A DNA stretch of 39,865 nucleotides from an uncultured Chitinophagaceae bacterium (GTDB lineage: Bacteria; Bacteroidota; Bacteroidia; Chitinophagales; Chitinophagaceae): NCBI GenBank assembly GCA_903830285.1, contig CAIKTE010000195.1, positions 1 to 39,865 of the forward strand. Direction: 5' to 3'. Below, one piece after another: positions 12,146 through 15,708 of the stretch (the first letter of the stretch is position 1; every line of letters begins with the position of its first letter). The notes beneath the pieces were generated by a model. That model searched no databases and was not told the origin of the DNA. It worked only from the letters and a program-made list of their open reading frames with translations. The position numbers were made by a program, and so were the translations under genes.

Positions 12146-13030
12146 TCAATATCCTGCTTTTGCAGATCCCACTGTTTCTATCGGATGCCATGTTGTTTTA
12201 ATTTCCTGTGTATCTGTAATAAAATAAGGTGACTGTCCTTCATCATTCTTCCAGTTGATTGTATCATAGAACAATACACGTTTCACATTCAAAGATGCTT
12301 TTTCCTGAATTAGCTTTTTTGTTGCTGTATCATTCTCACAATAAACAACAGCATTGATGTCCATATGATTGGCAAAATATTTTACCAGTTCAGATGGCTT
12401 ACCTGTTAGAATATTGATCACTCCACCGGGGACATCAGATGAATTGATCACTTCAGCAAATGTTACGGAACACAATGGCTTATCTTCTGATGCCAGCACT
12501 ACACAAGTATTTCCTCCTGCGATCGCAGGTGCGATTACAGAAACCAATCCCAACAAGGCAGTATTCTGAGCTGCAACAATTGAAACTACCCCTGTTGGTT
12601 CAGGAACAGAAAAATTAAAGTGTGATGATGCAACTGGATTCACAGCACTAAACACTTGTTGATATTTATCGCACCAACCTGCATAATAAATTAGTCTGTC
12701 GATAGAAAGATTTACTTCGGTCTCTGCATCTTTTGCTGATGAATCCTGTTTGATCAGTTCATCAATAAACTGTGCTCGTCTTCCTTCCAGCATTTCTGCA
12801 ATGCGATATAATATCTGCGAACGGTTGAATGCAGCCCTGCCACTCCATCCGCCAACTGCGTTTCTTGCTGAAACAACAGCATCACGAACATCTTTCCGTG
12901 AGCTTAAACAAACATTAGCCAATGCCTGTCCTTTTTTATTTTTTGCAACATAATATCTGCCGCTTTCAGTTCTTGGAAACTGACCGCCGATATAGATCTT
13001 GTATGTTTTTAAAATTTCTATTCTACTCAT
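12146..13030 (-). CDS. Truncated aldehyde dehydrogenase-fold protein without catalytic domain
   Basis: 294 residues resembling the N-terminal and NAD-binding parts of an aldehyde dehydrogenase: YIGGQFPRTESGRYY, YYAGWCDKYQQVF, EPTGVVSIVAAQN, PAIAGGNTCVVLASE, DVPGGVINILTGKP. The normal 'LELGGK' base region is replaced by VKRVLFYDT, and the ~200-residue catalytic domain with the nucleophilic Cys is missing. The C-terminal tail (ITDTQEIKTTWHPIETVG) looks like the oligomerisation hairpin joined directly to the coenzyme domain. It cannot be a working dehydrogenase. It follows the catalytic ALDH gene by 92 nt; together they mirror the domain order of ALDH16, whose second domain is a non-catalytic ALDH-like module. 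A partner or scaffold subunit is the best inference. Only 24 bp separate it from the next gene, so no frameshifted remainder exists. Confidence 0.88.
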   Translation of the reverse strand: MSRIEILKTYKIYIGGQFPRTESGRYYVAKNKKGQALANVCLSSRKDVRDAVVSARNAVGGWSGRAAFNRSQILYRIAEMLEGRRAQFIDELIKQDSSAKDAETEVNLSIDRLIYYAGWCDKYQQVFSAVNPVASSHFNFSVPEPTGVVSIVAAQNTALLGLVSVIAPAIAGGNTCVVLASEDKPLCSVTFAEVINSSDVPGGVINILTGKPSELVKYFANHMDINAVVYCENDTATKKLIQEKASLNVKRVLFYDTINWKNDEGQSPYFITDTQEIKTTWHPIETVGSAKAGY

Positions 13031-13045
13031 TATTAGTATTTTTTA

Positions 13046-13092
13046 TTTCACACAAAGCTCACTAAGTATTCAACGAATACAAAGGCTTTGTG
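13046..13092. repeat. CACAAAG-type palindromic spacer element, copy 1
   Basis: TTTCACACAAAGC starts at 13046; CACAAAGC (13051-13058) pairs with GCTTTGTG (13085-13092), and inside it GTATTC/GAATAC (13066-13071/13075-13080) makes a second perfect hairpin. A related element with the same TTTCACACAAAG, CACTAAG and TTCTTTGTTTC words lies on the other side of the ALDH gene. It resembles the widely dispersed 'CACAAAG...CTAAG' intergenic repeats of environmental bacteria. Confidence 0.6.
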
Positions 13093-13122
13093 TACATTGT
13101 ATTCTTTGTTTCTTTTGGAAAA

Positions 13123-14598
13123 TTATAGTTTCAAATATGCACCCAACCCATGCAGACCTCCTTCTCTTCCAAAGCCACTTTCTTTATATCCGCCAAAAGG
13201 TGATGTTGGATCAAACTTATTATATGTATTCGCCCAAATAACACCTGCGCGCAATTTTGATGTAAGATTGAAAACCTTAGAACCCTTGTCTGTCCATACT
13301 CCTGCGCTTAAACCAAAAGCTGTATTGTTTGCCTTTTCAATTACTTCATCATCTGTTCTGAAAGTTTGGATCGCTAATACCGGTCCAAAGATCTCTTCTT
13401 GTACAATGCGGCTTGATTGCGCCACATTGGTAAATAATGTTGGTTTACAGAAGAACCCTTTTCTTGGCAATACACAATTGCTTTCGAAAATTTCCAGTCC
13501 TTCTTTTTTTCCAATGTTGATGTATTTATGAATGGTCTCTAATTGTTGTTTTGAATTGATAGCACCCACATCCGTATTCTTATCCATCGGATCCCCCACA
13601 ATTAAAGTAGCAATTCTGTCTTTCAATTTTTGCATCACGATCTTGTAAACCGATTCCTGGACAAACAATCTGGAACCCGCACAACAAACATGGCCCTGAT
13701 TAAAAAATATACCATTGATGATTCCTTCCACTGCCTGATCTATCGCCGCATCTTCAAAAATGATATTGGCAGCTTTACCGCCTAATTCAAGCGTTATCTT
13801 TTTATTGGTTCCTGCAACAGCTCGCTGAATGATCTTACCTACATCTGTAGAACCGGTAAATGCAATCTTATTAATGTCGGGATGATTCACGATCGCCGCA
13901 CCTGTTGCACCTGCTCCTGTAATAATATTTACAACACCTGGAGGAAGATCACTTTCCTGAATGATCTCAGCCAACTTCAAAGCTGTAAGTGATGTGGTTT
14001 CTGCAGGTTTCAATACAACTGTATTTCCTGTTGCCAATGCCGGCGCGATCTTCCAGGCTGCCATCAACAAAGGAAAATTCCATGGAATGATCTGTCCCGC
14101 AACACCCAAAGATCTAGGTTGCTTATTTGGAAATGCATATTCTAATTTATCTGCCCAGCCTGCATAATAAAAGAAATGATTAGCTGCTAAGGGAATATCA
14201 ATATCTCTACTCTCACGAATAGGTTTACCACCATCCAATGTTTCGATCACTGAAAATTCTCTGGCACGTTCCTGGAGCATTCTTGCAATTCTGTAAATAT
14301 ATTTTCCTCTTTCCTTTGTCGGCATTTTGCTCCACACATTATTGTAGGCATTACGTGCCGCTTTCACAGCCTTGTCTACATCCGCTGCATTTGCATTTGC
14401 AATACTTGCTAATTTTTCTTCTGTTGCAGGATTGATAGTATCAAAATATTTTTTGCTCAATGGCTTTTCAAATTTTCCATTGATGAACAGGTCGTATTGT
14501 GCATCAATCTTTGCACTGCTCTTGCTTTCCGGTGCCGGTGCATATTTCAACGTATCGAATTTTAATTTCAGTGTATTATTTTTTGTTGCTTTCGCCAT
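13123..14598 (-). CDS. NAD(P)-dependent aldehyde dehydrogenase, catalytic subunit
   Basis: 491 residues, a complete class of ALDH that oxidises an aldehyde to its acid. Visible motifs: GQIIPWNFPLLM, LKPAETTSLTA, FTGSTDVGK, general base Glu in TLELGGKAAN, and the nucleophile Cys at residue 305 (NQGHVCCAGSR, aligned with C302 of ALDH2). EEIFGPVLAI and SPFGGYKESGFGREGG complete the fold. It is the second gene of a deoC-led minus-strand cluster, ~105 nt after deoC; DERA releases acetaldehyde, an obvious substrate. The closest architecture I can name is the N-terminal catalytic domain of ALDH16, given the non-catalytic ALDH-like gene directly downstream. An ordinary broad-range ALDH is the alternative. 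Confidence 0.93.
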   Translation of the reverse strand: MAKATKNNTLKLKFDTLKYAPAPESKSSAKIDAQYDLFINGKFEKPLSKKYFDTINPATEEKLASIANANAADVDKAVKAARNAYNNVWSKMPTKERGKYIYRIARMLQERAREFSVIETLDGGKPIRESRDIDIPLAANHFFYYAGWADKLEYAFPNKQPRSLGVAGQIIPWNFPLLMAAWKIAPALATGNTVVLKPAETTSLTALKLAEIIQESDLPPGVVNIITGAGATGAAIVNHPDINKIAFTGSTDVGKIIQRAVAGTNKKITLELGGKAANIIFEDAAIDQAVEGIINGIFFNQGHVCCAGSRLFVQESVYKIVMQKLKDRIATLIVGDPMDKNTDVGAINSKQQLETIHKYINIGKKEGLEIFESNCVLPRKGFFCKPTLFTNVAQSSRIVQEEIFGPVLAIQTFRTDDEVIEKANNTAFGLSAGVWTDKGSKVFNLTSKLRAGVIWANTYNKFDPTSPFGGYKESGFGREGGLHGLGAYLKL

Positions 14599-14608
14599 AA
14601 TTTATTTT

Positions 14609-14698
14609 TTTCACACAAAGGAACTAAGGATATCAAGTTCACTAAGTGTTATTATTATTTTCTTTGTTTCGTTGCAATCTTAGTCGCTTTGTGTGAAA
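14609..14698. repeat. CACAAAG-type palindromic spacer element, copy 2
   Basis: TTTCACACAAAG (14609-14620) and CTTTGTGTGAAA (14687-14698) form a perfect 12-bp inverted repeat, with inner CTAAG/CTTAG words in register. It fills nearly the whole deoC-ALDH spacer and shares words with the element at 13046-13092, so the ALDH gene is bracketed by two members of one repeat type. Confidence 0.65.
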
Positions 14699-14703
14699 CC
14701 AAA

Positions 14704-15624
14704 CTAATCAACTGAAAAATAATTGGCAGATTGATATACTCCTGTCCTTTCTTTTTCCAATTGCATCAGCACATCATTTGCCAGACTGCTTGCGCCAAAT
14801 CGGAACCAATGATTATTCATCCATGCCTCTCCCAATGTTTCCTGCAGCATCACCAAATAATGTAATGCCAATTTAGATTTTGAGATACCACCTGCAGGTT
14901 TCATAGCGATCATCTTTCCTGTCTTGTAATAAAAATCCCTGATCGCTTCAAGCATTACTAATGTTACTGGCATGGTTGCAGCAGGTGTTATTTTTCCGGT
15001 AGATGTTTTAATAAAATCCGCCCCTGCATACATCGCTATATCACTCGCCTTTCTAACATTATCATAGGTAACCAGTTCGCCTGTTTCTAATATCACTTTT
15101 AATCTTGCAGCACCACATGCTTCTTTTACTACCGCAATCTCATCAAATACAAAATTATAATCCCCCTGTAAAAATCTTCCTCTTGAGATCACCATATCAA
15201 TTTCATCAGCACCATTATTCACTGCATATTTTACATCACGGATCTTTACATCGCGAGATGCTTGTCCGCTCGGAAATGCAGTTGCAACGGATGCCACATT
15301 GATACCTGAATTTCCCAAAGCTTTTTTTGCAACACTTACCATGGATGGATATACGCAAATTGCCGCTACTGTTGGCAATCCCGGATAAGCATCATGTAAA
15401 TGCCGGGCTTTATAACAAAGCTGTTTTACTTTACCATCTGTGTCCTTTCCTTCTAATGTGGTGAGATCGATCATATTCAAAGTGAGCTTCAAACCATTCA
15501 GCTTTGATTCGGCTTTAATGCTTCTTTTCGTGAAACGGGAAGCTCGCTCTTCCACACCTACATGATCTATATGCGGACTGTATCTAAAATCAGGGACAGT
15601 AACTATCTTTTTTTCTGCAGTCAT
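14704..15624 (-). CDS. deoC: Deoxyribose-phosphate aldolase DeoC (long, eukaryote-like type)
   Basis: Cleaves 2-deoxyribose-5-phosphate to glyceraldehyde-3-phosphate and acetaldehyde, ending deoxynucleoside catabolism. The Schiff-base Lys is in ADFIKTSTGK, the second active-site Lys in MKPAGGISKSK and the acidic pair in GADEIDMVI. At about 306 residues it is longer than the 259-residue E. coli enzyme; the N-terminal extension (LTLNMIDLTTLEG) and the C terminus (FRFGASSLANDV ... TGVYQ) resemble animal DERA. The start at 15624 is chosen over the TTG at 15645 because that TTG is part of a promoter -7 element. It leads the ALDH cluster, which could oxidise the acetaldehyde it makes. Confidence 0.95.
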   Translation of the reverse strand: MTAEKKIVTVPDFRYSPHIDHVGVEERASRFTKRSIKAESKLNGLKLTLNMIDLTTLEGKDTDGKVKQLCYKARHLHDAYPGLPTVAAICVYPSMVSVAKKALGNSGINVASVATAFPSGQASRDVKIRDVKYAVNNGADEIDMVISRGRFLQGDYNFVFDEIAVVKEACGAARLKVILETGELVTYDNVRKASDIAMYAGADFIKTSTGKITPAATMPVTLVMLEAIRDFYYKTGKMIAMKPAGGISKSKLALHYLVMLQETLGEAWMNNHWFRFGASSLANDVLMQLEKERTGVYQSANYFSVD

Positions 15625-15642: not shown

Positions 15643-15672
15643 CAAATGTAGTTAAAAGAAAAAGGTTGTCAA
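15643..15672 (-). promoter_or_regulatory. Promoter of deoC (TTG-19-TACATTTG)
   Basis: On the minus strand TTG (15672-15670) is followed by 19 nt and TACATTTG (15650-15643), an exact match to the Bacteroidota TAnnTTTG -7 element. Transcription would begin about 5 nt further on, leaving a short leader before the ATG at 15624. Confidence 0.7.
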
Positions 15673-15708
15673 TAGAATTTGACAAGCTTTTTAAGTTGGT
15701 TAAATAGC

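Follow-up and report, generated by a model that had tools for sequence, protein, structure and literature searches.

Why should a complete aldehyde dehydrogenase (ALDH) be followed by a second, shorter ALDH-like protein that has no catalytic domain? The question is raised by a 39,865-nt stretch of DNA from an uncultured Chitinophagaceae bacterium (contig CAIKTE010000195.1 of assembly GCA_903830285.1, positions 1 to 39,865; the whole stretch is called the window here). Reading of its open reading frames (ORFs) gave, on the minus strand and in this order, deoC for deoxyribose-phosphate aldolase (DERA), a complete ALDH and a short ALDH-like gene. A preliminary description, made from the letters alone, had taken the two ALDH genes for a two-subunit version of ALDH16, an enzyme in which a catalytic ALDH domain is followed in one chain by a second, non-catalytic one. 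We consider it probable, with roughly three chances in four (0.77), that the locus encodes a two-gene ALDH16 in a deoC operon, an obligate two-subunit enzyme that oxidizes the acetaldehyde made by DERA. The three genes, borne out by the ORF reading and by Pfam as the deoC-ALDH-short ALDH arrangement first described, are:

15624-14704, minus strand: deoC (DERA), 306 residues from the ATG; an alternative TTG at 15645 would give 313 residues.
14598-13123, minus strand: catalytic subunit, a full-length ALDH of 491 residues with Cys305, Glu271, Glu402 and Lys197.
13030-12146, minus strand: non-catalytic subunit, 294 residues, a homologue of the ALDH16 C-terminal domain with a Rossmann part, a 24-residue hairpin segment and a C-terminal strand KTTWHP.

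The long protein matched the Pfam family Aldedh with 543 bits over profile positions 6-457. It carries Cys305 in VCCAG and Glu271 in LELGGK, as had been noted for a complete ALDH, and also Glu402 and Lys197. For comparison we aligned 166 catalytic rows from split (two-gene) loci, 154 of them distinct, 183 split short rows (171 distinct) and 35 fused (one-chain) rows, 34 of them distinct in the catalytic module; the same catalytic residues are kept in 166/166 split and 35/35 fused catalytic rows. The best match in the PDB was the N-terminal (catalytic) module of ALDH16 (483 bits), followed by retinal dehydrogenase 2 (442 bits), and both the PDB search and the trees described below identify the protein as a catalytic ALDH module of the ALDH16 clade. 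From the residues present, the catalytic subunit is predicted to oxidize aldehydes with NAD+.

The short protein matched Aldedh with 138 bits and only over profile positions 7-233 of 461, and the alignment has a gap at the position of the catalytic Cys. Its best PDB match was ALDH16 residues 501-764 (154 bits); the next family reached 109 bits and the N-terminal half of ALDH16 56 bits. An AlphaFold2 model built from 78 sequences had a predicted local distance difference test score (pLDDT) of 92.7 and a predicted template modeling score (pTM) of 0.88, and its top fold alignment was to ALDH16 494-766 (Z 37.7, 1.7 Å over 273 residues, 36% identity). Ordinary whole ALDHs came nearly level (Z 36-37.4), matched as their N-terminal part plus the last strand; residues 6-286 of the model align to ALDH2 16-497 over 273 residues at 1.8 Å. 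The fold by itself does not separate ALDH16 from ordinary ALDHs, and the kinship with ALDH16 comes from sequence and trees, which make the short protein a second ALDH-like module of the C-terminal clade without a catalytic domain. The Pfam range, the gap at Cys and the model alignment to ALDHs agree with the composition read at the outset, N-terminal and coenzyme-fold parts plus the oligomerization tail. The opposite outcome that the preliminary description had allowed for, a sequence closer to unrelated ALDH families than to the second domain of ALDH16, is contradicted by the 154 versus 109 bits and by the trees. The ratio of nonsynonymous to synonymous substitution rates (dN/dS) of the short gene, computed against three relatives, was 0.05-0.09; the gene is under purifying selection and is neither a chance frame nor in decay. 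In annotation the protein reached only the general Pfam ALDH family, none of the 25 NCBIfam rows shown attaining its cut-off, and recognition of the pair would improve the annotation of a protein that otherwise reads as an ALDH fragment. It also matched phrog_15577, a phage protein family of unknown function (502 positions, E 3e-16), and some viruses seem to carry ALDH-like proteins.

Phylogenetic trees were computed for each module in a quick and a careful version. The quick catalytic tree (35 split and 34 fused catalytic modules, 10 other ALDHs) united split and fused modules in one group with support of 100, with 95 for the split and 98 for the fused modules. The careful catalytic tree had 46 rows and omitted four of the ten other ALDHs; it set the remaining ones apart with 100/99, gave the fused group 100/98 and supported the split group weakly (54/28). 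For the short module, the quick tree combined 38 split rows, 34 fused rows and 9 N-terminal ALDH halves; it gave 100 for the joint group, 97 for the fused and 93 for the split rows; the careful tree (49 rows) gave 100/100, 100/98 and 96/81, respectively. In these trees each protein groups with its ALDH16 counterpart, the long one with the catalytic module and the short one with the C-terminal domain, and the trees of the two modules agree with each other. The split group as one clade received 54/28 in the careful catalytic tree against 95 in the quick one and 96/81 for the short module, and the trees favor neither direction of change.

The flap of an ordinary ALDH packs on the neighboring protomer, and ALDH16, as Liu and Tanner reportedly found in 2019, mimics this packing inside one chain. 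The passage of PMC8160307 on this family summarizes both points. In the split pair the flap is distributed unevenly. After the motif GREGG, 159/166 split catalytic rows have 9-14 residues and the other seven 16-48, compared with 17-34 residues, last strand included, in 16/16 ordinary ALDHs (E. coli PuuC, FeaB, AldA, BetB and AldB plus paralogues, some near-identical). The hairpin segment is 24 residues long in 183/183 short rows and 21 in 35/35 fused C-terminal domains; on the catalytic side it has 13 residues in 159/166 split rows (11-19 overall) and 11 in 35/35 fused ones. The tail K[TN]xW[HILV] ends 182/183 split short rows, the exception being cut by a contig end, and 34/35 fused rows. When the C-terminal strand was searched with a permissive regular expression, 33/166 catalytic and 16/16 ordinary rows matched, a poor discrimination; the length of the tail does discriminate. 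Conversely, the coenzyme-site Lys is missing in 183/183 short rows and 35/35 fused domains, and the position of the catalytic Glu is Glu in 2/183 short rows. Segment conservation, computed on 105 thinned split short rows, was among the lowest in the former coenzyme region (0.51) and among the highest in the N-terminal loop (0.86) and the last strand (0.85); it does not single out the flap, as helix 67-83 scored 0.86, segment 197-210 scored 0.87 and the hairpin a middling 0.76. As read from the aligned sequences, the enzyme stayed with the catalytic chain, which lost the last flap strand, and the flap stayed with the short chain, which lost the enzyme. This complementary loss and retention fits a pair that would dock as the two parts of ALDH16 do.

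The co-occurrence of the two genes was examined in 392 genomes of the Bacteroidota phylum, with a short-gene threshold of E up to 1e-35 and catalytic orthologues of at least 65% identity; scoring was limited to the best 4 to 6 candidates in each genome, and extra copies could be missed. The short gene was found in 77/392 genomes, in 72 as its own gene and in 5 within frames of 806-1061 residues (one genome with a fused gene, G150, is absent from the list of catalytic orthologues). Genomes with a separate short gene and genomes with the catalytic orthologue formed identical sets of 72/392. The short gene lay behind the catalytic gene, on the same strand and less than 1 kb away, in 65/72 genomes (median gap between longest ORFs 17.5 bases), and deoC was upstream of the pair in 65/65 of these adjacent loci. 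A further set, genome_contigs, which shares some genomes with the phylum sample, held 80 loci, 76 of them with room, defined as 1.5 kb of upstream DNA or a visible catalytic gene; the genes were adjacent in 68/76 and deoC preceded the pair in 57/68. Among the 11 adjacent loci without deoC, the short gene is preceded by less than 1.8 kb of DNA in 8, and the other 3 have room. Altogether the loci retrieved contain more than 100 adjacent pairs, and cultured carriers include Ferruginibacter sp. HRS2-29 (L146) and Fluviicola chungangensis (L173). That short homologues might mostly lie far from a catalytic gene, a concern of the preliminary description, is not what these counts indicate.

The same arrangement occurs outside Bacteroidota. 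Contigs bearing the labels Woeseiaceae, Candidatus Neomarinimicrobiota, Planctomycetaceae and Lentisphaerae contain the deoC-ALDH-short triplet, as does the actinomycete Nonomuraea gerenzanensis (L136); the pair was seen in a Mariniblastus contig. In the phylum of genome G442 (contig labelled Proteobacteria; 299 genomes, 40 matches) the only separate gene was that of G442 itself, and the other 40 matches lay in frames of 779-889 residues. In the phylum of G445 (labelled Planctomycetaceae; 148 genomes, 20 matches) 12 genes were separate and 8 in frames of 810-936 residues; besides G445, the 11 separate loci comprised 8 with deoC-ALDH-short, 1 with ALDH-short and 2 with the short gene alone (L332 and L333). 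We concluded that the two-gene form is widespread and conserved. The split loci in contigs of several phyla rule out an oddity confined to Bacteroidota. Two further split loci, L149 (labelled Streptomyces griseus) and L159 (Spirochaetia), are 72% and 65% identical to the window, and these contigs are probably mis-binned or mislabelled. Fused forms, which the preliminary description had suggested looking for, were found with the modules in the same order and behind deoC. The fused gene directly follows a same-strand deoC in 33/34 loci (5/5 in the Bacteroidota phylum, one in Sinorhizobium medicae, 20/20 picked from the 40 matches in the G442 phylum and 7/8 in the G445 phylum), and the remaining one, L315, starts at a contig end.

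The gene in front of the pair is deoC. Its product matched Pfam DeoC/LacD with 70 bits and TIGR00126 with 172.6 bits, above the curated cut-off of 117.3, which places it in the DERA family. The best PDB matches were DERA chains of the E. coli type (167 bits), and the lysine motifs KTSTGK (Lys206) and KPAGG (Lys242) are present; by comparison with E. coli DERA we take these two to be the catalytic lysines.

In the mechanism we propose, DERA would release acetaldehyde and the catalytic subunit would oxidize it to acetate with NAD(P)+. This subunit has lost the oligomerization strand that an ordinary ALDH protomer offers its neighbor; the short subunit, with the flap kept on a Rossmann body devoid of coenzyme-site and catalytic residues, would dock on it like the C-terminal domain within the ALDH16 chain and form an obligate heteromer; the short subunit may be needed for activity. 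The products of DERA are given as acetaldehyde and glyceraldehyde 3-phosphate in the relevant passage of PMC6365646. The deoC linkage, in 65/65 adjacent split and 33/34 fused loci, points to acetaldehyde as the substrate of the ALDH pair and to use of DNA sugar as its role. A non-acylating ALDH beside DERA would yield acetate, which an acetyl-CoA synthetase could activate. The source genome has an acs gene (acetyl-CoA synthetase) and places of the purine-nucleoside-phosphorylase family. No thymidine phosphorylase of the PF00591 family was recognized in it; the single PF00591 place lies in a 356-residue frame that, judging by its length, probably encodes an anthranilate phosphoribosyltransferase.

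Several observations weigh against a two-gene ALDH16. As a stand-in for the complex, the in-frame pair L209 was read through its stop and folded as one chain; the alignment contained 13 paired rows in all, one of them truncated by the end of a contig, plus 23 rows of the catalytic subunit only. The catalytic half of this model matches ordinary ALDHs; compared with ALDH16 the model superposed at only 17.6 Å over 696 residues and showed no ALDH16-like docking, in a model that is itself weak (pLDDT 77.5, pTM 0.57, residues 427-476 mostly below pLDDT 50). The hairpin of ordinary ALDHs has 14-22 residues and can thus be as short as 14, and only the loss of the tail separates the groups cleanly. The short gene is away from the catalytic gene in 7/72 split genomes (two genera). 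In four of these (family f66) a deoC gene ends roughly 1 kb upstream of the ALDH, which the short gene follows at a distance of 4-7 kb; at one such locus, L091 (genus g191; 220000-231000 of G434:C11), a PAS-rich histidine kinase gene and a DUF4476 gene lie between the two. The other three (f38) keep both genes on different contigs, and no deoC was seen there in flanks of up to 1.5 kb around the ALDH. In the genome_contigs set 8/76 loci have the short gene apart, one of them at 1.3 kb; in each of three such genomes examined the catalytic gene is present elsewhere. L183, L190 and L206 have room and the pair and no preceding deoC. Finally, L332 (556-1599) and L333 (3551-4516) hold short genes at 41% identity, preceded by roughly 3.5 kb in which no catalytic ALDH lies, and are possibly a stand-alone branch.

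The undocked halves of the read-through model and the short genes that sit away from their partner would suit a regulator or adaptor that forms no stable ALDH16-like complex, having instead brief contacts with the catalytic ALDH, DERA or some other partner, or homodimerizing through its flap. We regard this as improbable, because the same protein also exists in one chain with the catalytic module, behind deoC and in unchanged order, both genes occur in the identical 72/392 genomes, and the catalytic subunit has no strand of the kind used by the classical homodimer. That an ALDH fragment adjoins an ALDH might also suggest a recent truncated duplicate of the neighbor that has no relation to ALDH16 and is being lost. 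The short protein is only 33% identical to the neighboring ALDH, groups with the ALDH16 C-terminal domain and not with the neighbor's N-terminal half (100/100), has a dN/dS of 0.05-0.09 and occurs in contigs of several phyla; a recent duplicate or pseudogene is scarcely conceivable and is ruled out by trees and dN/dS. It is not very likely, if easier to entertain, that the split ALDH16 acts on another aldehyde and is linked to deoC as part of a wider operon for nucleosides or carbonyl stress: a review table gives the substrate of ALDH16 as unknown (PMC10650815), whereas deoC is next upstream wherever the split genes are adjacent in the phylum sample and in all fused loci but one, and acetaldehyde is listed as a DERA product (PMC6365646). 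A microcompartment enzyme was rejected, no shell gene being present by Pfam among six genes scanned, three of them neighbors. A two-gene ALDH16 in domain order, as originally proposed, is supported by sequence, trees, adjacency and the fused forms behind deoC. The order of catalytic and non-catalytic modules is found here as gene order; the two modules are two ORFs and not one chain, and for this reason we call the locus a variant of ALDH16 and not a member.

ALDH16 is reportedly called enigmatic by Liu and Tanner. The sections of two reviews that deal with it place the enigma in the extra domain and in the dead human form (PMC8160307, PMC10650815). The natural two-gene form would allow the extra domain to be deleted, added back and titrated with the enzyme untouched. 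The bacterial fused ALDH16 of Loktanella sp. (PDB 6mvr/6mvs/6mvt/6mvu) is closest in sequence to both modules and tops the fold list of the short protein; module order is the same, and deoC precedes 33/34 of the fused loci examined here, the Loktanella locus not being among them. It differs in having one chain instead of two genes, and the short module, 36% identical over the structural alignment, falls in a clade apart from the fused forms. Human ALDH16A1 is an expected relative as an ALDH16, known here from the descriptions in reviews, which in the parts concerned call it devoid of catalytic residues (PMC10650815, PMC8160307); the catalytic subunit of the window keeps Cys305 and Glu271. Ordinary tetrameric or dimeric ALDHs (ALDH1/2, BetB, PuuC) share fold and motif set with the catalytic subunit, whereas each of their chains includes its own C-terminal strand (16/16 of those compared have tails of 17-34 residues). 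In sugar-phosphate-utilizing microcompartment loci DERA is likewise paired with an aldehyde dehydrogenase, which the portion of PMC4207490 consulted proposes to form acetyl-CoA; the six genes scanned here include no shell protein. Among the matches listed in the open-license literature, none dealt, judging by titles and the openings of abstracts, with a split ALDH16 or with the link between ALDH16 and deoC.

As to origin, it is possible, though we hold it doubtful, that the two-gene state is ancestral. A tandem duplicate would have shed its catalytic domain and its neighbor the flap, leaving an obligate heteromer for DERA acetaldehyde, and one later fusion would have produced the one-chain ALDH16 of Pseudomonadota and of eukaryotes. 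If this is true, the animal pseudoenzyme would descend from a two-subunit acetaldehyde dehydrogenase. At L080-L083 (family f55) the end of the catalytic ORF resembles a linker rich in Pro and Ser, GREGG being followed by 46-48 residues, and this ORF shares at least 100 nt with the short ORF in another frame (longest ORFs), as if these loci stood close to fusion or had only just undergone fission.

The window is contig C195 of a source genome of 3.99 Mb in 384 contigs, which has eight PF00171 places including the catalytic ALDH and the short gene. By the short protein, its nearest named relatives are metagenome-assembled genomes labelled Bacteroidota, Chitinophagaceae and Chitinophagales. By Pfam, the operon is flanked by genes for a SPOR-domain protein and an M20 amidohydrolase downstream and for a MORN-repeat protein upstream. 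The ALDH and short ORFs are out of frame with each other and divided by a stop and a 92-nt spacer. The remaining features are:

15643-15673, minus strand: promoter-like site before deoC, read from the sequence as ATTG, 19 nt and TACATTTG.
14599-14703, minus strand: spacer between deoC and the ALDH gene with the palindrome TTTCACACAAAG...CTTTGTGTGAAA (fold z -5.1).
13031-13122, minus strand: spacer between the ALDH and short genes with a related hairpin and one CTTTGTGTGAAA arm (fold z -3.8).

The promoter consensus of Bacteroidota is TTTG-N19-21-TAnnTTTG. The site at 15643-15673 comes near it and overlaps a sigma-70-like match, of which there are 17, close to the 15.0 in shuffles. The ATG at 15624 is favored as the start of deoC because this promoter-like site, of the TAnnTTTG type, covers the TTG at 15645. 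The 12-mer CTTTGTGTGAAA has five exact copies in the genome, three of them in the spacers of this operon, and its reversed control has none; the spacer hairpins look like copies of one small palindromic repeat.

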